Shown here in pieces: positions 21,369-32,728 of a DNA stretch of 32,728 nucleotides. The DNA is taken from positions 1 through 32,728 of the forward strand of contig JAJTFE010000007.1 in NCBI GenBank assembly GCA_021298375.1. Direction: 5' to 3'. A program made the position numbers and the translations under genes. This DNA comes from Blastopirellula sp. Its GTDB lineage: Bacteria; Planctomycetota; Planctomycetia; Pirellulales; Pirellulaceae. Position 1 is the first letter of the stretch, and each line of letters starts with the position of its first letter. A model generated the notes under the pieces. That model did no database searches. It was not told the DNA's origin and saw nothing but the letters and a program-made list of their open reading frames with translations.

Positions 21369-21440
21369 TTTCAGAGCCACCGAAACGACTCGCGGCTCGC
21401 AGCATTCGCGTGAGCAGGCGGAACGGCAACTTGCCTGCCC

Positions 21441-21515
21441 AGCGCAAGTCTCGTCAGCGCAAGTCTCGTCAGCGCAAGTCTCGTCAGCGCAAGTCTCGTC
21501 AGCGCAAGTCTCGTC
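21441..21515. repeat. Direct tandem repeat, 15-bp unit, five exact copies
   Basis: AGCGCAAGTCTCGTC is repeated without change at 21441, 21456, 21471, 21486 and 21501. The array is flanked by GAACGGCAACTTGC (from 21421) and GAACGGCAAGTTGC (from 21533), so the flanks are also similar. It lies between the hypothetical gene and the secretin gene. Confidence 0.95.
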
Positions 21516-21807
21516 AGCATGCGCGCTCCGTTGAACGGCAAGTTGCTCCAAGGCGGGGCGCTTTTCGGCTCTGTTTCCCCCCGAAGATTTGCTGCTTGCT
21601 GTTATCGATCAGAACGCTCGTAAGCGATCGGCGCTCCGCCTTCCGGATTTAGGATGCCGCGCGCGTCAAACTCGCTGTTAATCTGCGCAGCCTACCAGCG
21701 ATGCCGCAATTCTGGGTAATTTGCGAAGGCAATTCTGCCAGCAGTTTGGTGCCAGCAGCCCGCATATTTTGCCAAAAAAGAAGATCTTGCCACGGATCCG
21801 TTTGATA

Positions 21808-21836: not shown

Positions 21837-22045
21837 ACAGCCCACGAAAACTTTAATGCCGTGCGCTGTCTTCGGACTCGTCGCCGGTTCTGCGCTTTGG
21901 GTACGCAAAGAATCGGAGACGACTTGGAGTTGACAACAGCTCCACAGAATCGTGGCTGACAGGCCTCCCCCCGGGAAGTCTGGATCCGGCTGGCAGCGAT
22001 CCGTTTTTTATTGGGTATCCAGCGTCACGTCACAAGGAGAGATGC

Positions 22046-25000
22046 GTGAGAGTCTCCGATTTTTTCAGCAAGCGCTTTTGGTCTGCGGGCTTGATCGTCG
22101 TGATCACCGCGGGTCAAGCCATTGCAGTCGCTCAGGGGCAAGCTCCCCAGCAGCCTGCAACTGCCAGCCAGCCGGCTCAAGCCGGGACGGATCGAATCCA
22201 GTCCTGGTTGCGAGATGCCGAGCAGGCGATGAGCCAAGGCAAGAAGGATCTTGCCGGCCGCTACCTTGAAGTCGCGACCGCAGTCGCGAAGCAACCCGGG
22301 CAGGATCCTGCTGCAATGCAGCAGATCGAAGCCCTCCGTACAAAAATGGGGCTTCCCGCCCCGGCAGCTCCGGCAACTCCGGCTGCTGCTCCCGCCGTCA
22401 ACCCCGCGATGCAATCGCTGGCCCAGGCCCGCAAGGCACTGGCCGCCGGTGATTTGGCAGCTGCCTCTCGACACCTGCAACAGGCTGAACAGCTGGGCGG
22501 TGACTTTACCGCTTGGGGTGATTCACCTGCCAAGGTCGCGACCATGATCAAGCGACAGGGCGAACTGGTCGAGATGTCCAAGAATGGCGATGCCAACCAG
22601 TTCAACCTGCAAGCCGCCAAGTTCCTCATGGAGCAAGCGGACCAGATGCTGGTCCACAAGGACTGGAGTTCGGCTGAGCAACTCGTCCAGCAGGCTGGCA
22701 AGTTCCCGGTCGACTTCAAGACTGTGGGAATGGACCCGCAGATGATGCTGACCAAAATCAGTGTGGCTCGCGGCGACGCCATGCCGGCTCCGCAGACTGC
22801 GGCAGCACCGATGAACGCGGCTGGCGGAAATCTGAACGAGTGCCTCAAGCTGATGTCTCAGGCTCAACTGGCTGTCGACCAGGGTCGCTGGGAAGAAGCC
22901 GCTTCGCTGGTTGCCAAGGCCAAGGCGATGAACGTCCCTGAATCGGCCTTCACTGCCGAGCAGGTCCGCCCCTGGCAACTCGAGTTGACCGTGCAAAAGG
23001 CAATGAAGACTCGCGGCTCCGCGGGGACAGTTGCTCCGGCCAGCTTCACTGACGGCGCTCCCGCCATGGTCTCCAATGCGGGCTACGTTCCCGAGCAGGA
23101 TCAAACCAAGGTTGCTCCGGTCTCGGCGACGGAAGCCAAGTCTCAGGAGTCGGAAGAGATCGACCTCAGCGCCCTGAACGACACCGAACAGGCGATGTTC
23201 CGCCAGCTCCACGGCAGCGTCTTCAAGACTCGCGCCGAAGCCGAGCGGATCATCTCCAAGGATCCGCAGGCCGCTCTCTCCAAGATGATGGAACTCCGCA
23301 GCGAGGTCTCCGCCAGTGCCTTGTCCGAAACCAACAAGGGTCCACTGCTGACGATTGTCGATCGCGACATTCAGGAGATGCAGCGCTACATCCAGCAGAA
23401 TCTGCCGGACATCCAGAATCAGCAGGCCAATTCAGAGCGTCTGGAACAAGTCGAGCTGACCCGCGAACAGCGGTACCAGGTCGAAAAGCAAATCCAGAAG
23501 CTGGTGGAAGACTTCAACCGTCTCCTCGACCAGAAGCGTTACGCTGAAGCCGAGCAGGTCGCTCGTCAAGCTGCCGAACTCGACCCGGACAGCGAAGTCG
23601 CTTCGCTGCTGTTCGAGAAGGCCAAGATGAGCGCCCGGATGGGTGAGCTTGATGCTCTGGCTGACGCGAAGGAAAGCAATATCCAAAAGGCGATTGGCCG
23701 CGACATGGAGGAACTCGGAACTCCCATGGATGCAGCCGTGCCGATGCAGTTCGGCGACGCCGAGATGTGGAACCGTCGGACCCAAATGCGGCTGAAAGCC
23801 CTCGGCGACCGCCAATATGGTTCGGATGCCGAACGGAACATCTGGAATGCCCTGAAGAACACCAAGGTTCAGGGCGACTTCCGCGGTCCGTTGTCAGAAG
23901 CGATTGACCAACTCTCCCAGCAGGGTGGAGTGAATATCGTGTTCGACCAACTGGCTCTGGCCGCTGAAAATGTCGATTCCAGCCGTCCAGTGGACGTGCC
24001 GATTCGTGAACCAATCTCCCTGCAGAGCGCCCTCAACGTGGTGCTCGGCTCGGTCGGTCTCGTCTTCACCGTCGAAGACGAAGTGATCAAGGTCACCAGC
24101 CGGAATGCTCAGCGGAAAAACGTGGAACCCAAGACCTACTACGTGGGTGACTTGGTAACTCCGATTACTCCGCAGCAAACGCCTTCCCAGATGAACTTTA
24201 TCACTCCTCAACCCTCGCTGAATACCCAAAACTCGATTTTGGCTCAAAACCAGCCGCAGCAGCCTACTCAGCCAACCAGTGTGGCTGCGATGGCCCAGCA
24301 GTTGCCTGGTGGAATGATGGGCCCGGGTGGTTGGGGCATGCTTGGCCGGAATGACTACAACAGCGGTCCGCAAACGGGCATGCCGGTTTACAACTCGATG
24401 GGGGCTCCCCAACTCGGCGGTGTGACCGAAGCGGACTTCCAACCGCTGATCGACCTGATTCAGAGCACCATCGCTCCGGATGAATGGTCGGAAACCGGAC
24501 AGGGTGACGGTACCATTCAGCCGTTCGTCCCCAACCTCAGTTTGATTGTCTCGCAAACCCAGGACATTCAGGACCAGATTCAAGATCTCTTGAAGCGGTT
24601 GCGGGAGCTGAACGACGTTCAAATCGTCGTCGAAGTCCGGTTCGTCACCTTGCGGGACACCTTCTTCGAACGAATCGGTATCGACTTCGACTTCAATATC
24701 AATGAAAACTCGGGACTGACCCAGCCAATTGGCGATACGGTCAACCCCAGTACGGTCATTGGTCTTGATCCGACGGGCGTTCCGACAGCTGATCTCGACC
24801 TGCAGTTCAATCAGGGCAGCTTCTCGTCTGCGGTCCCAACCTTCGGTGGATTCGACCCTTCGACGGCCGCCAACTTCGGGTTTGCGATTCTCAGCGATAT
24901 TGAAGTCTTCTTCCTGATTCAGGCAGCCAAGGGCGACCAGCGGACCAACATCTCGCAGGCTCCGACCGTGACCATGTTCAACGGTCAAAGCGCGAGCGTG

Positions 25001-25606
25001 TCAGACTTCCAGGCTCGTCCGTTTGTCACCTCCGTCATTCCCATCGTGGGCGATTTCGCCGTGGCTCACCAGCCCGTGATCTCGATTCTTCCTGATGGAA
25101 CGACCCTCAACGTTCAGGCGGTCGCTTCCGACGACCGTCGCTTCATCCGCATGTCGCTCGTGCCGTTCTTCAGCACGATTACCGATGTCAAAACCTTTAC
25201 CTTCGATGGCCGACGCCGCGTGCGTCGAACCTCCGACAACCTGCTTCAGGACCTGTTGGACTTGGGTAACGGCGATAACAACGATAATAACGATGGCGAA
25301 AACAATGAAATTGAAACCGAGTCGCAAGGCGTGACCATCCAGCAACCGGTGATCGCCGTCACCACTGTCAGCACAGTGGTCAGCGTTCCGGATGGTGGTA
25401 CGGTTCTGCTCGGCGGGATCAAGCGAATGCAGGAAGGCCGCATCGAACGCGGTGTTCCAATGCTCAGCAACATCCCGTACATCAATCGACTCTTCAAGAA
25501 CGTTGCTGTTGGCCGCGAAACCTCGAACCTGATGATGATGGTGACTCCACGCATCATTATTCAGGAAGAGGAAGAGCAGGCCCAAGTTGGACCAGTAGGT
25601 AACTAA
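22046..25606 (+). CDS. Secretin-domain outer-membrane protein (GspD/PilQ-like) with a long helical N-terminus
   Basis: This 1186-residue protein should form a large outer-membrane pore. GTG 22046 is the start, with AAGGAGA six bases before it; an ATG at 22042 is in another frame. A signal segment (LIVVITAGQAIAVAQG) precedes four degenerate helical modules (about residues 50-95, 125-170, 195-240, 270-315), each with the pattern A..L..gdw..A. Residues 608-690 resemble a secretin/TonB short N-terminal domain (ALNVVLGSVGLVFTVEDEVIKVTS). After a Gly/Met/Gln-rich linker comes an N-domain (SLIVSQTQDIQDQIQDLLKRL) and the secretin core with VPDGGTVLLGG (about 1114) and GVPMLSNIPYINRLF. No other type II secretion or pilus gene is adjacent, so its partners are unknown. 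Confidence 0.9.
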   Translation: MRVSDFFSKRFWSAGLIVVITAGQAIAVAQGQAPQQPATASQPAQAGTDRIQSWLRDAEQAMSQGKKDLAGRYLEVATAVAKQPGQDPAAMQQIEALRTKMGLPAPAAPATPAAAPAVNPAMQSLAQARKALAAGDLAAASRHLQQAEQLGGDFTAWGDSPAKVATMIKRQGELVEMSKNGDANQFNLQAAKFLMEQADQMLVHKDWSSAEQLVQQAGKFPVDFKTVGMDPQMMLTKISVARGDAMPAPQTAAAPMNAAGGNLNECLKLMSQAQLAVDQGRWEEAASLVAKAKAMNVPESAFTAEQVRPWQLELTVQKAMKTRGSAGTVAPASFTDGAPAMVSNAGYVPEQDQTKVAPVSATEAKSQESEEIDLSALNDTEQAMFRQLHGSVFKTRAEAERIISKDPQAALSKMMELRSEVSASALSETNKGPLLTIVDRDIQEMQRYIQQNLPDIQNQQANSERLEQVELTREQRYQVEKQIQKLVEDFNRLLDQKRYAEAEQVARQAAELDPDSEVASLLFEKAKMSARMGELDALADAKESNIQKAIGRDMEELGTPMDAAVPMQFGDAEMWNRRTQMRLKALGDRQYGSDAERNIWNALKNTKVQGDFRGPLSEAIDQLSQQGGVNIVFDQLALAAENVDSSRPVDVPIREPISLQSALNVVLGSVGLVFTVEDEVIKVTSRNAQRKNVEPKTYYVGDLVTPITPQQTPSQMNFITPQPSLNTQNSILAQNQPQQPTQPTSVAAMAQQLPGGMMGPGGWGMLGRNDYNSGPQTGMPVYNSMGAPQLGGVTEADFQPLIDLIQSTIAPDEWSETGQGDGTIQPFVPNLSLIVSQTQDIQDQIQDLLKRLRELNDVQIVVEVRFVTLRDTFFERIGIDFDFNINENSGLTQPIGDTVNPSTVIGLDPTGVPTADLDLQFNQGSFSSAVPTFGGFDPSTAANFGFAILSDIEVFFLIQAAKGDQRTNISQAPTVTMFNGQSASVSDFQARPFVTSVIPIVGDFAVAHQPVISILPDGTTLNVQAVASDDRRFIRMSLVPFFSTITDVKTFTFDGRRRVRRTSDNLLQDLLDLGNGDNNDNNDGENNEIETESQGVTIQQPVIAVTTVSTVVSVPDGGTVLLGGIKRMQEGRIERGVPMLSNIPYINRLFKNVAVGRETSNLMMMVTPRIIIQEEEEQAQVGPVGN

Positions 25607-26143: not shown

Positions 26144-28540
26144 CTACTCGATTTCGCGGAGCGGGGCGGTCGCTCCGTCCTCTGCCGGAAGACTGGAAAC
26201 AGGGGGCTGCGTTGTGCCTCCAGTGCGATACTCGATCTGTGGCAAATCATCAATGCAGCTGGTTTCCGCGTTTACCTGATAGTAATCCAGCACAACCCCC
26301 ATCGCCCGTCTGAGGTTGATTTGAGCCCGCTTCAACTCCAACTCGGCCAGCGTCACCTCTCGCTCCTGGTCGGTAACTTTTTGCTGGGCAGCCAGCAACT
26401 GATCCAAAAGCAAGCTTTGAGTTTGCCCCTCAAACCAATCTCCCTCAACCAGCGGAAATGCGTCCCAGCGGACTTCCAATTGCTTGAGCTCGGCCAGGAC
26501 TGCATCGAGCGCGATCTGGGCGGAATCGAGCGTTTCTATTCCCGAATTGAGGGTCCTGAAGCCCTTCTGCGTTTCGGCAATCACGGCGATCGTGGCCCGC
26601 TCCAATTCATTTTGATAGCGGACGTATTCCAGACGGTTCTGGCGGTTGCGGCTGGTTGCGGCCCGATTCCACCAAGGGAACTCATATTGCAATCCAGCCG
26701 AGTAGCCGGGAGTCGAATTGACGAATTGCTGCTCCCAAGCTTGCCCCAGAGCCGAGTCACCCTTCAGACCCTTGACATAAGTCCCGAATAACAGGGACAA
26801 GTCTGGCAGCATTTCGTTCCGCGTCACATCATTGCGGACAGCTGCTGCCTTGAGCTTGTTCATCGCCTCACGAATTTCCGGGCGATTTGCCAAAGCCACT
26901 TCGACCGTTTGCGAGAGTTCCAGTGGCTCGACCACCTCTTGTGGCGGTTCCACGGTAAGCAATTCAATCTGATCCGAATCGATGAGCTGGGTATCGCCGA
27001 CAATCTGGCGAATTTCAGTCTCTGCATTGCGAACATCCCGCAAAGCGTTGGCCAACTGGACCCGTCGCGACGTAACGGCCGCGCGAGCCTGCGCGAGCTG
27101 CAGGGCCTGAACGTCAAAATTGGCTCGCGCTTCAAGCCGCTTGAGAATCGCCTCGCTCCGCTGCAGATTTCGCAGCATCTGCAAGTAGATTGCCCGCTTG
27201 GCATACAAATCCCAATAAGCACTGACGGAACGAGCCAGTTCCTCCTGAATCCTCCAGGAAACCTGATCCCAGGAAGCCCCGGCGTTCAACTGGGCAATCA
27301 CGATTTGTGAACGGTTGTAAGTCTGGCCGGCCCCACGCAACAGCGGTTGCTGAAGATTGATCGCCAGTGTCGCAGTTCCCTGATCCTGAGGCACAAAGAA
27401 TCGCGAATTGCTGTTTTGGAATCCCAACAGCTGCGACGCTTCAATCTTTCCACCCGTGAAGTATTTGCGGCGAATTCCCGCCTGCCCCGTCCAGATGTTG
27501 TCTTTGAGAAACGGCAAGCCACCGGTAGTCAACGTATTGCCCACCGGGTCGGTGCGGTCGTCGTACAAGGTTCTGGCAAACAAAACCGGGTCAAATCCGG
27601 CCCGAGCGATCGTCGCGTCCTCCTCCCGTACCAATGGCTCCTGGCTGATCGCCTGCAGGTAGGGCGAGCCACGCAGCGTCAACTGAATCAACGCTCCCAA
27701 GTCCAGCGGTTCGTTTTGAGGCAAACCGCAAAATGGATTGGCAACTTCCACTCGCCACCACGTTTCCGGGGTCACCTGCTCCAGCGTGACTTGCTCTGGA
27801 GTTGCTTGTCCCTCAGTTGCTTGAGTTGTTTGCCCCGCTTCCTGCGCGACTTGCTCTGATGCCAAACGACTGGGGAGAGCCTGGTTGCGCGGGGCAGTCT
27901 CACTCGGAATTTCGGCAGATGGTCGAGCTACCGCAGTGGGCAATTCCGCTGGCAAACCTTGAAAACTCAACTCTGGGGGCTCAGCGTTTTTCCCGGGGAG
28001 TTCGCTCTCTGGTTCTCCCTCCTGGTTGGCCGGCAGGTTTCGAAGCTGAATCCCATCGAGCTGGGCCACTTGCCTTTCAGGCAGCGGCAAATCCCGGATG
28101 AGCACCACGCCGGAACCCGAAGACCGTGGTTGCTCGCTCTCGCGCCCGCCCCAAGCCTCCGTTCCTAAGCTTGTTTTCGCTGGAATAGCGGGGGGACTCG
28201 CAGACGCGGTGGCCAACTTCCGCAGCGGATTCTCGGGTTTGGCCGAAATCCGCAGTCCTTCGGAAGCGAGAGACCACTCACGAGAAGTCAGGGACCAGTC
28301 GTTTATCCCGTAAAAACTTCGCAAGTCCGCGGTCACTGCGCTGGGTTCGGCATCCAAGTCAAACTTCAGAAGCGCCGGCTCTTGAGCCGTCAAGCTACCC
28401 AAACAAACCCAGCCGCACGCCAACGAGCAGGCCTTCAGCCACGCCGCTCGCTGCGCTCGCCAGCCAGCTGTTCGCCGGACTTGGATTGGGTTGTTTAACT
28501 TGGTTGCAGTCACAATTGTTCTCGCAATGGTAACGGTCAT
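26144..28540 (-). CDS. TolC-family outer-membrane efflux protein with a long N-terminal extension
   Basis: The 798-residue protein starts at ATG 28540. A signal-like segment (ACSLACGWVCLGSLTAQ) is followed by a Pro/Glu/Ser-rich extension to about residue 280, ending with pentapeptide repeats (TPEQVTLEQVTPE). The rest is a TolC fold with two similar halves: NEPLDLGALIQLTLRGSPYLQ, GYSAGLQYEFPWWNRAATSR, the long helices EAILKRLEARANFDVQALQLAQARAAV and LAELELKRAQINLRRAMGVVLDYYQ. TolC proteins form the outer channel of type I secretion and efflux systems. No membrane-fusion protein or ABC exporter is in the window. It is divergent from the giant surface-protein gene, which may be a substrate. Its first half is longer than in classical TolC. 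Confidence 0.88.
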   Translation of the reverse strand: MTVTIARTIVTATKLNNPIQVRRTAGWRAQRAAWLKACSLACGWVCLGSLTAQEPALLKFDLDAEPSAVTADLRSFYGINDWSLTSREWSLASEGLRISAKPENPLRKLATASASPPAIPAKTSLGTEAWGGRESEQPRSSGSGVVLIRDLPLPERQVAQLDGIQLRNLPANQEGEPESELPGKNAEPPELSFQGLPAELPTAVARPSAEIPSETAPRNQALPSRLASEQVAQEAGQTTQATEGQATPEQVTLEQVTPETWWRVEVANPFCGLPQNEPLDLGALIQLTLRGSPYLQAISQEPLVREEDATIARAGFDPVLFARTLYDDRTDPVGNTLTTGGLPFLKDNIWTGQAGIRRKYFTGGKIEASQLLGFQNSNSRFFVPQDQGTATLAINLQQPLLRGAGQTYNRSQIVIAQLNAGASWDQVSWRIQEELARSVSAYWDLYAKRAIYLQMLRNLQRSEAILKRLEARANFDVQALQLAQARAAVTSRRVQLANALRDVRNAETEIRQIVGDTQLIDSDQIELLTVEPPQEVVEPLELSQTVEVALANRPEIREAMNKLKAAAVRNDVTRNEMLPDLSLLFGTYVKGLKGDSALGQAWEQQFVNSTPGYSAGLQYEFPWWNRAATSRNRQNRLEYVRYQNELERATIAVIAETQKGFRTLNSGIETLDSAQIALDAVLAELKQLEVRWDAFPLVEGDWFEGQTQSLLLDQLLAAQQKVTDQEREVTLAELELKRAQINLRRAMGVVLDYYQVNAETSCIDDLPQIEYRTGGTTQPPVSSLPAEDGATAPLREIE

Positions 28541-28990: not shown

Positions 28991-30397
28991 ATGAACGAAC
29001 GCAAATTCAATCCGCGAACCTCGCGTTGGATCCCCCGCCGTGTGCGGGTGCTCTATCGCTTGCTGCGCACTGAATTCGCGAAGAAAACCAGCCAGCCCGT
29101 CGACCGGATTTTCGCCCACGAACTCGAGCCGCGGGTCCTGTACGACGCTTCCCCGCTGGCAGTCGCCTTCCCCGGTGACTCCCTCGATGTAAATGAGCAA
29201 CCGGAACAAAACCTGTTTCCGGACACTCAAATCCAACCGCTGTTTGATTGGGCTGATGTTCCCCTGACACCGGAACTCGTCGAGCCCTCCTCCCCTCACC
29301 AAGCCGCCGTCGGCAGCGAACTCTCGAGCCTTTATGCTGAACAAGCCTCCTCCTCTGTCGAGTTACTGGCAATCGACTCCCGCATTCTGCAGAGCGAGTC
29401 GCTGCTCGATCAGTTGACATCGCTCGATCACGGCTATCGCAACCTGGAGGTAATTGTCGTCGACCCTGATTCCAGTGGGGTTAATGTCTTAAGCGAGCGC
29501 CTCAAGACATTGAAACATGTTGGTGCCATCCACCTCGTTGCCTGGGAACAGGAACAAGGCACCTGGCTTGGGCAATCCGACCTTGGTTCTGCTGCCGTTT
29601 CCGGGTTGAGTTCAACCTTTACACTGTGGCGACAATCGCTCGATCCAGACGGCTGCATTCTGCTCTATGGCTGGCCGGATGCATCTGCATCAAATCCGCT
29701 TCAACTGGCGGAGCAAACCTTGCTCTGGAGCGAGCCCGGGATCGAAGAATCCCTGTCACATGCCGAATCATGCACGATTCAGCTCACCGCCGGCTTCTAC
29801 GGGGAAGCCGAAAATCACGACCCAGCTGACACTCTCGAACGGGACCTCGAGACTCTGCTCGGGGTCAGCACGCAATTGGCAACGGGTTGGCTCGACGCTC
29901 CCTCGGTTGCCGTCAATGGAGACTGGTCGGACGCCTTTCAAGAGGCGGAACTGGCCGAATGGAACGCACTCCCATCCACCTCCACTTTTGGAACTCCTCC
30001 CCGCGAGGAAGTGGTTTTTATTGACGGCTCATTGGCCGGCGTCGATTCCCTGGTTGCTGCCTGGAGCATGGAGGCCGACCCATGGCGAAATATCACCATT
30101 GTGGTGATCGATCACGGCGATGACGGAATCAACTTCATCGGCCAGTACCTCGCTGAGTCGCAAACCCGATTCTCCGCCGTACACCTCGTCTCACACGGCT
30201 TCGCTGGTGGCTTCCATTTGGGCTCGGCAGTCTTGACCGGAGGCAGTCTCGACTTTTATCAGGAGTCCCTGGCCAACTGGCAGCTCAATCTGACCGATCA
30301 TGCGGATCTGCTACTCTATCTACCGGCTCGACCCGAGTGGGCGGCGATTGGAACCTTGAGTTTCAGGTCGGCCAGTTCACTGCAGATAGCAGCTTGA
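28991..30397 (+). CDS. LEPR-XLL and DUF4347 N-terminal part of a giant surface protein, frame broken
   Basis: The 468-codon frame encodes the N-terminus of a large planctomycete surface protein. It begins with a basic stretch and the LEPR-XLL-type motif HELEPRVLYDASPL (about residues 43-56). Two DUF4347-type domains follow: a divergent one (about 110-260, EVIVVDPDSSGVN, CILLYGW) and a clearer one (about 340-443, EEVVFIDGSLAGVDSL, ITIVVIDHGDDGIN, AVHLVSHGFAGGF, ADLLLY). After LLLY (tat at 30317-30319) this frame runs through 25 unnatural codons to TGA 30395. The expected continuation is found in another frame, so the stop is probably due to mutation or a sequence error rather than the true end of the protein. 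No ribosome binding site precedes ATG 28991. The TolC-family gene is divergent from it. Confidence 0.8.
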   Translation: MNERKFNPRTSRWIPRRVRVLYRLLRTEFAKKTSQPVDRIFAHELEPRVLYDASPLAVAFPGDSLDVNEQPEQNLFPDTQIQPLFDWADVPLTPELVEPSSPHQAAVGSELSSLYAEQASSSVELLAIDSRILQSESLLDQLTSLDHGYRNLEVIVVDPDSSGVNVLSERLKTLKHVGAIHLVAWEQEQGTWLGQSDLGSAAVSGLSSTFTLWRQSLDPDGCILLYGWPDASASNPLQLAEQTLLWSEPGIEESLSHAESCTIQLTAGFYGEAENHDPADTLERDLETLLGVSTQLATGWLDAPSVAVNGDWSDAFQEAELAEWNALPSTSTFGTPPREEVVFIDGSLAGVDSLVAAWSMEADPWRNITIVVIDHGDDGINFIGQYLAESQTRFSAVHLVSHGFAGGFHLGSAVLTGGSLDFYQESLANWQLNLTDHADLLLYLPARPEWAAIGTLSFRSASSLQIAA

Positions 30398-32728
30398 GGG
30401 CAGACGCATCTTGGGAGCACTTGCTTCTCACTTACACCGTTGCCGACGACTTCGGCACTGCCGCCTACAGCAACAATTCCGGGACGAACAATTGGGCCGC
30501 AAACTGGACGGAAAATGACGGAGGCTCCGGTCCGACAGCGGGCTCAATCTACATTTCGGGAGGTGGGTTGATTTTCCGCCCCGAGACTAACGGGGAATGG
30601 ATCTCGCGACAGGCAGACCTATCCGGGGCGCACTCGGCGACGCTGAGTTTCACTTTTGATAACACGATGGACAGCCAAGGGGACGCTGTCCAGATCGACC
30701 TGCAAATTTCGGCCGATGGCGGAGCAACCTGGTCGACTTTGGATTCGTTCAGCAACACAGTCAATACAGCGGCAGGCTCCAAGAGCTACGATATCACGTC
30801 GTCCATCGCGTCGAATACAACCGTCCGGTTCATTGTGACGGACAATGACGGCAGCCCGGTTTATCTTTATCTGGACAACTTCCAGATCTCTTACCAAATC
30901 AACGCAGCCCCGACAGCTGTCGCGGATACAGCGATCGCCGTCGAAGCAGGCGGGGTCAGCAACGGGACCGCTGGCACCAATCCCAGCGGAAACGTACTCA
31001 CGAATGACACCGACCCCGATGCCGGCGATACCAAGACTGTCACCGGGGTCGCAGCTGGTACAGTAGGCAGCGCCAGCGGTAACGTCGCCTCGAATGTGAC
31101 CGGTACCTACGGCTCTATCAATATCAGCGCGAGCGGCGCCTACACCTACACGGTCGACAATAGCAACGCCGCTGTGCAGGCCCTCCGCACCAGCGGCAAT
31201 ACCCTGACCGACACCTTCACCTACACGATGCGGGACGCGCTGGGCCTGACCAGCACCACCCAAGTCACGATCACCATCCAAGGCGCCAACGACGCGCCGC
31301 ATGACCTGCTGGGCGCCCTGAGCATTGCCGAAAACGTCGCCAATGGCTCGGCGGTCGGAACCCTTACCCGCAGCGACGTCGACACGGGCGATACCGCGAC
31401 TTACTCGCTGCTCGACGATGCCGGCGGACGCTTTGCAATCAACAGCTCGACGGGCGTGGTCACCGTCGCCAACGGCTCACTCCTCGACCGGGAGGCTGCC
31501 GCCAGCCACAACATCACCGTCCGCGTCACCGACACGGCCGGCGCAACTTACAGCGAGGTAATGACCGTCACGATCACCGACGTCGACGAGTTCGACGTCG
31601 GAGCGGTCAGCGACAGCAACGCTGCCGCCAACTCCCTCGCCGAAAACTCGGCCAACGGCACCGCCGTCGGGATTACGGCTTCGGCCTCCGATGCCGATGC
31701 CACCACCAATACGATCACGTACACCCTCGACAACAACTCGTTCGGACGCTTTGCGATCAACAGTTCGACCGGCGTGGTCACGGTCGCCAACAGCAGCCTG
31801 CTCAACTACGAAGCCGCCACCAGCCACTCCATCACCGTCCGGGCCACCTCGGCTGACGGCAGCTGGTCAACCCAGACCTATACGATTAGCCTCACGGACG
31901 TCGACGAGTTCGACGTCGGAGCCGTTACTGACACCGAGACGGCCGCCAATTCGGTTGTCGAAAACTCGGCCAATGGGACGACAGTCGGGATCACCGCCTC
32001 GGCCTCCGACGCTGACGCCACCACCAAGACGATTACCTACACTCTGGATAACAGTGCCGGTGGACGGTTCGCCATCAACAGTTCCACCGGCGTGGTTACG
32101 GTTGCCAATAGCTCATTGCTCGATCGCGAAGCAGCCGCCAGCCACTCGATCACCGTCCGGGCCACTTCCGCCGACGGCAGCTGGTCGACTCAGAGCTTCA
32201 CCATCAACCTCACCGACGTCGATGAGTTCGACGTCGGCGCAGTCACCGACGGCAACGCTGCCGCCAACTCCGTCGCCGAAAACTCGGCCAATGGCACAGC
32301 CGTGGGCCTCACCGCTTCGGCTTCTGACGCCGACGCCACTACCAATACCATCACCTACACCCTCGATGACACCGCCGGCGGACGCTTTGCGATCAACAGC
32401 TCGACCGGCGTCGTCACCGTCGCCAACGGTAGCCTGCTCGATTTCGAAACAGCGACCAGTCACAACATCACCGTCCGGGCCACTTCGGCCGACGGCAGCT
32501 GGTCCACCCAGACCTTCACGATCAACCTCACCAACGTTAACGAAACTCCTACTGCCGTTGCGGACACGGCGATTGCGGTCGAAGCGGGTGGGGTCAGCAA
32601 CGGGACCGCCGGTACTAATCCCAGCGGAAACGTGCTCACGAACGATACCGATGTCGACGCTGGTGATACCAAGGCCGTCACGGGCGTCGCAGCTGGCACG
32701 GTGGGCAGTGCCAGCGGTAACGTCGCCT
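30319..32728 (+). CDS. VCBS/cadherin-repeat continuation of the giant surface protein, runs off the window
   Basis: This frame is open without a stop from before 30319 to the window end. It resumes with STGSTRVGGDWNLEFQVGQF, the usual end of a DUF4347 domain. About 30430-30900 then encode a jelly-roll-like domain (SATLSFTFDNTMDSQGDAVQ, VYLYLDNFQISYQ). A VCBS-type domain (30901 to about 31287, with GNVLTNDTDPDAGDTKTVTG and GSINISASGAYTYTVDN) is followed by a cadherin-like unit, three further units of exactly 318 bp, and a second VCBS-type domain from 32539. Asp-rich motifs such as DADATTNTI and DVDEFDVG suggest calcium binding. It has no plausible start of its own and is taken as the rest of the gene beginning at 28991. 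Adhesion or matrix binding is inferred from domain type. Confidence 0.8.
30901..32728 (+). repeat. Dispersed VCBS-type domain repeat within the giant gene
   Basis: The segment beginning at 30901 (APTAVADTAIAVEAGG) recurs from 32539 (TPTAVADTAIAVEAGG), 1638 bases later, with nearly the same protein sequence to the window end (32728). A larger repeating block of one VCBS unit plus four cadherin-like units is suggested. Confidence 0.85.
31579..32532 (+). repeat. Three tandem 318-bp coding repeats (cadherin-like units of 106 residues)
   Basis: Units begin with DVDEFDVGAV at 31579, 31897 and 32215, exactly 318 bases apart, and the third ends at 32532. Protein similarity is very high (ENSANGTxVGxTASASDADAT, GRFAINSSTGVVTVAN), while many third codon positions differ. 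A shorter divergent unit precedes them (about 31288-31578). Confidence 0.93.

Follow-up and report, generated by a model that had tools for sequence, protein, structure and literature searches.

The locus analyzed here raises the question of which machine, if any, is served by a giant secretin whose contig carries no pilus gene. The window, meaning the whole 32,728-nucleotide stretch of Blastopirellula sp. contig JAJTFE010000007.1, encodes this protein in a single open frame of 1186 residues, which begins with a GTG codon six bases past an AAGGAG motif; both the motif and the GTG start are kept in three further species of the same genus.

22034..22039, + strand: Shine-Dalgarno sequence AAGGAG of the secretin gene, read directly from the sequence
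22046..25606, + strand: giant secretin gene (PilQ-type, probable Amuc_1098 counterpart), 1186 residues; open frame, Pfam Secretin match (9e-23), homologs in 40/40 sampled Pirellulales genomes

A profile of this secretin family finds a match in 117 of the 118 sampled Planctomycetota genomes, although outside Planctomycetia many of the matches are weaker and roughly 750-1200 residues long, and some could be other secretins. Family members range from 941 to about 1700 residues, the shortest being without most of the helical modules described below. In Planctomycetales (loci L191-L194), the secretin of ~1400-1700 residues is preceded by a gene of 375-424 residues whose N-terminus looks like that of a lipoprotein and which carries a PV(V/L)GPPPPR motif. 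In the window itself, a short sequence, CAAGTCTCGTCAGCG, is repeated in tandem about five times upstream of the secretin gene at ~21440-21520. Convergent with the secretin gene is that of a 798-residue TolC-like outer-membrane efflux protein (PF02321) with an unusually long N-terminus (26144-28540, -), and beyond it a DUF4347 protein whose LEPR-XLL motif is near threshold (28991-32727, +) is overlapped by a cadherin-rich open frame running off the contig end. An Rfam search of the window gave no match. The TolC-like channel and the DUF4347 protein were considered as functional partners, as were HtrA, DsbD-like and SPFH proteins, and all were rejected: none is conserved next to the secretin in relatives, where the scattered HtrA-type, kinase-type and ABC-type matches are non-orthologous genes.

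The domain order of the protein was established from Pfam searches and AlphaFold models, with 28 family members used both for the Pfam domain counts and for the AlphaFold alignment. Its C-terminal half is organized as follows.

23831..24121, + strand: N0 (STN-like) ring domain, residues 596-692; structure comparison, with STN found by Pfam in relatives
24122..24421, + strand: disordered linker rich in Q, G, M and P, residues 693-792; pLDDT about 30
24422..24613, + strand: weak N3-like Secretin_N domain, residues 793-856; Pfam E=0.02, below the cut-off
24614..25588, + strand: secretin β-barrel domain, residues 857-1181; Pfam 9e-23 and structure comparison

The C-terminal domain lies well above the Pfam PF00263 cut-off (81.1 vs 27.5 bits; E=9e-23), and PF00263 is matched in 28/28 family members. 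The predicted barrel fold (residues ~853-1181), of low local model confidence, gives Z scores of 10-12 to the GspD, PilQ and InvG barrels. Ahead of it, the predicted N0 domain aligns with EscC N0 (Z 9.5, 84 residues, rmsd 2.7 Å) and XcpQ N0 (Z 8.2), and residues 601-695 align with the N0 of Neisseria PilQ (Z 8.6, rmsd 2.9). Pfam detects STN in 4 of the 28 members and Secretin_N, at E<0.01, in 5 of the 28. Thus the suggestion that helical repeats had replaced the usual N0-N3 domains did not hold: N0 is present, followed by a segment that is probably a single N3-like domain, while N1 and N2 appear to be absent. These data correct the idea of lost ring domains, since the barrel and N0 are retained and the helical modules have been added or multiplied ahead of them.

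The N-terminal part of the protein is mostly helical over about 560 residues, so that the long helical stretch which the earlier note had placed ahead of the ring domains is borne out.

22046..22135, + strand: putative signal peptide, residues ~1-30, with a probable cleavage site after AVA and without a lipobox cysteine; sequence inspection only
22172..22363, + strand: helical module 1, residues 43-106; AlphaFold helices 43-63, 67-81 and 88-101, homologous to modules 2-4
22400..22588, + strand: helical module 2, residues 119-181; AlphaFold, profile-profile homology
22592..22780, + strand: helical module 3, residues 183-245; AlphaFold, profile-profile homology
22820..23023, + strand: helical module 4, TPR-like, residues 259-326; AlphaFold, profile-profile homology
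23180..23716, + strand: second helical/coiled-coil region with weak TPR, residues 379-557; AlphaFold, weak TPR matches at 492-519

The four modules claimed from the sequence are real: the AlphaFold model contains four three-helix units (residues 43-101, 120-180, 183-242 and 259-324), and profile-profile comparison with hhalign finds them mutually homologous (probability 95-98%, E 2e-8 to 6e-13). When the modules were compared with control segments in the same way, nothing comparable was found except a weak TPR-like signal at 480-556. Aligned pairwise without profiles, the modules reach only partial significance, and one pairwise match, between M5 and H540, was discarded as an overlap artefact. 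Pfam TPR matches in the protein are weak and confined to 492-519, while the repeat profile and structure of the modules are TPR-like; in the predicted structures, 56 residues of module 4 superpose on Hop TPR2A with an rmsd of 1.9 Å, and secretins from other planctomycete classes have recognizable TPRs in their N-terminal part. The predicted helical units thus resemble TPR proteins, but we use "TPR-like" as a description and not as proof of descent, because helical repeats commonly resemble TPRs.

The gene neighborhoods of relatives place this secretin in a pilus context. In eight Pirellulales genomes (G037, G025, G036, G039, G008, G024, G005 and G020), pilM, two membrane-protein genes labeled here C0 and C2, and the secretin follow one another in that order on one strand, and in a ninth (G007) the four genes lie within about 7 kb in a different order. 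Named-genome neighborhoods were also inspected for the best 80 loci, all planctomycete, of which 52 had enough upstream sequence to judge. C2 lies directly upstream of the secretin in 19 of these 52, and pilM was also seen in 14 of the 19. The C2-linked loci include Botrimarina hoheduenensis and four genomes of the Mariniblastus group (46-57% identity), the latter being among the closest to the window. As a simple proportion of genome length, a pilM-cluster neighbor would be expected by chance within 5 kb of a given gene in well under 1/100 genomes. Two observations touch the same cluster. In a distant class (G105, L202 5260-15084), one intact cluster comprises pilM, a C0-like gene, a gene of 264 residues, a TPR-bearing secretin of 844 residues and pilin-like genes. 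Moreover, a large conserved gene lies divergently upstream of pilM (L073 13148-15988 and homologs; full-length copies ~840-1110 residues), with a sub-threshold Glyco_hydro_38N match (6.9e-5) and often a cytidylate-kinase-like gene beside it.

The cluster partners were identified by profile and by fold. PilM scores above the cut-off of the TIGR01175 PilM model (1.8e-44) and matches the Amuc_1101 family model at 4.7e-57, below that model's cut-off. Searching the PDB by sequence with C0 and C2 returned nothing useful, and for C0, which had no sequence match, the likeness to Amuc_1100 comes from the predicted fold: its ten best Foldseek matches are all Amuc_1100, followed by PilO, and its model aligns at Z 10.4 over 168 of the 171 residues that make up the Amuc_1100 core. 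C2 is equated with Amuc_1099 by position. With C0 predicted to adopt the Amuc_1100 fold and PilM resembling Amuc_1101, the four genes can be equated with Amuc_1101, Amuc_1100, Amuc_1099 (by position) and Amuc_1098 of the Akkermansia pilus and mucin-use locus. From this gene linkage, the folds of the partners and the domain order of the protein, we conclude that the secretin very probably works as the PilQ of a PVC-type pilus system. It is highly probable, in our estimation, that it is the outer-membrane PilQ equivalent of a type IV pilus-like machine common to Planctomycetota and Verrucomicrobiota.

This assignment has to be reconciled with the arrangement in the window genome, where pilM, C0 and C2 lie on contig C16, apart from the secretin, with C2 running off the contig end; in two genomes of the same genus (G001 and G002), the secretin is likewise apart from pilM. 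Thus the view that the gene is isolated from any machinery is accurate for the window contig, but not for the family, whose secretin sits in the pilM cluster in relatives. The genome encodes three secretins. That on C293 has six Secretin_N matches and a GspD model match of 1e-87, and that on C261 adjoins RcpC/CpaB, which marks it as the Tad secretin. PilB, PilC, pilins and a partial PilT at the contig end are found on C187, and T2SS genes on C102. Since the other two secretins are those of the T2SS and Tad systems, this secretin and the pilus machine, each otherwise without a counterpart, fit each other, and the count of paralogs leaves no other secretin for PilB, PilT, PilC, the pilins and PilM. 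This elimination argument is weaker than the linkage argument, because the assembly, at only 78% completeness, could lack a fourth secretin, and because relatives carry 2 to 10 secretins.

The best-surviving alternative, which we nevertheless regard as improbable, is that the protein forms an independent pore or collar in the planctomycete envelope, with no relation to pili and with the barrel acting as a giant porin across the wide periplasm. It would account for the contig without pilus genes and for the very long helical N-terminus, as well as for the many genomes in which secretin and pilM are separated, and for G026, a 99% complete genome in which the secretin and pilus motor genes are present and PilM was not found. 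Against it stand the direct pilM-C0-C2 linkage in many relatives, the close Mariniblastus group among them, the presence of PilM alongside the secretin almost throughout the phylum (PilM in 116 of the 118 sampled Planctomycetota genomes by Pfam search) and the retained N0 domain. Of the distinct planctomycete envelope pore proposed in the earlier note, what survives is a planctomycete-specific, long-collared outer-membrane secretin; the isolated pore without pilus machinery does not, as most of a type IV system is encoded on other contigs of the same genome (PilB, PilC, partial PilT, pilins, and PilM with its two partners).

Curated family models do not by themselves settle the class. The protein scores 75.9 bits against the NCBIfam PilQ model TIGR02515 (cut-off 284.35), 53.8 bits against the Amuc_1098 model NF042912 (cut-off 750) and 73.2 bits against the GspD model TIGR02517 (cut-off 351), in each case below the cut-off. 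The near-equality of the GspD and PilQ scores is what could favor a T2SS secretin, or a pore common to the T2SS and the pilus, yet we consider this very unlikely: the same genome has the separate GspD-like secretin with six Secretin_N matches, whose counterparts end gsp operons (gspE to gspD) in G030, G036 and G008.

We therefore describe the protein as a longer variant of the known PVC-type PilQ that scores below the curated thresholds for PilQ and Amuc_1098. In Akkermansia, immunogold labeling places Amuc_1098, a PilQ, in the outer membrane; its secretin domain spans 650-876 and its three N-terminal TPRs lie at 71-239 (PMC4960237), and the Amuc_1098-1102 region has been described as a cluster of type IV pilus genes (PMC10688800). 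Like the window protein, Amuc_1098 combines a C-terminal secretin barrel with N-terminal helices, which are TPRs in Amuc_1098 and TPR-like in the window protein; it is linked to PilM (Amuc_1101) and Amuc_1100-fold genes, as the window family is in relatives, and, going by locus numbers, in the same order of pilM, Amuc_1100-like gene, third gene and secretin. It differs in length (907 vs 1186 residues, against a family range that begins at 941) and in having three TPRs where the window protein has four three-helix modules and a second helical region. The comparison was made through the NCBIfam model and the published description, and the model similarity, 54 bits, lies in the barrel only. In Akkermansiaceae, a related pilus locus has been proposed to act in glycan attachment or uptake; the Akkermansia cluster is also described as the MUL2 locus, whose four named genes do not include the secretin (PMC13174399).

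Type IVa PilQ (TIGR02515; Pseudomonas, Neisseria, Vibrio, Thermus) shares the order of N0 then barrel and the same barrel fold, and has PilM/PilO-type partner genes, a linkage seen for the window family in relatives and not on this contig. Unlike type IVa PilQ, the window protein has helical modules instead of AMIN domains and falls below the curated score. AMIN domains had no Pfam match at E<0.01 among the 28 family members, and in the AlphaFold models the helical modules occupy the N-terminal place that AMIN domains take in other PilQ proteins. PilF, PilW and Tgl are TPR pilotins that work with PilQ as separate lipoproteins, whereas the window protein carries its TPR-like part within the secretin chain. 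The helical modules could be a built-in pilotin or a periplasmic spacer, both of which are possible; a built-in pilotin has been suggested for Amuc_1098 (PMC4960237). In Planctopirus limnophila, one report calls Plim_0794, Plim_3284 and Plim_3688 pilQ-like and describes their deletion without loss of viability (PMC11958385). These planctomycete genes can be likened to the window family by name.

In the proposed mechanism, 12-15 secretin subunits would form a ring in the outer membrane, with the N0/N3 domains contacting an inner-membrane complex of PilM/Amuc_1100/Amuc_1099 type (PilM/C0/C2), and PilB and PilT would drive a pilus out through the pore and back. The TPR-like modules would form a periplasmic collar doing the work that AMIN domains and a separate TPR pilotin do elsewhere, in assembly or in peptidoglycan or partner docking. 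As proposed for Akkermansia, the likely use would be surface attachment and glycan capture.

A pore of this type also bears on the crateriform structures of planctomycetes, enigmatic outer-membrane complexes whose description names no protein for them (PMC5394234). The large pits of P. limnophila bear 12-nm pili-like fibers that bind dextran, and they look like press-studs joining the outer and cytoplasmic membranes (PMC5394234). Being pilus-type, paired with an inner-membrane complex and present in nearly every planctomycete sampled, the secretin is an obvious, and we think good, candidate protein for these structures, through which planctomycetes may take up large molecules. Only tentatively, and as a reading we hold to be on balance unlikely, we propose that the secretin and the PilM/Amuc_1100-type inner-membrane complex are the crateriform core itself: the pit would be the secretin with its helical collar and the 12-nm fiber the pilus, whose retraction would carry polysaccharide bound to it into the wide periplasm, and the whole would be homologous to the Akkermansia pilus locus for mucin use. 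Cryo-tomography speaks against a need for a collar long enough to span an enlarged periplasm, since it places the pits at points of close approach between the two membranes (PMC5394234). If true, this link would name a phylum-wide gene set (secretin, PilM, the Amuc_1100-fold protein and one more) and tie macromolecule uptake in planctomycetes to an Akkermansia pilus locus implicated in mucin use. Recruitment of the gene away from the pilus where it lies out of the cluster, so that it forms the pits as an outer-to-inner membrane connector without pilus function, would suit the press-stud appearance of the fiber-bearing complexes (PMC5394234) and the separation of secretin and pilM in this genus, but is most unlikely given that the genome keeps PilM, C0, C2, PilB and PilC and that a pilus pore would explain the fiber coming out of the pits no less well.

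Sequences resembling the secretin also occur in other settings. Giant von Willebrand-A proteins of 1354-1451 residues in Pirellulales (L037 8045-12400, -; L038 8020-12084, +) share secretin residues about 400-707 at 28-30% identity, as well as a motif of 46-55 residues near the C-terminus that corresponds to window protein residues 999-1053 (45-48%). In one such giant tested, the Pfam secretin match was not found; these proteins may be degenerate secretin-derived partners. In G051, a member of another class (L205 5866-18328), a TPR protein, an ExbB/MotA-type proton channel and a pair of ExbD-type genes, of which Pfam confirmed one, lie between two secretin genes that carry TPRs; this arrangement suggests a proton-driven module beside the secretin.
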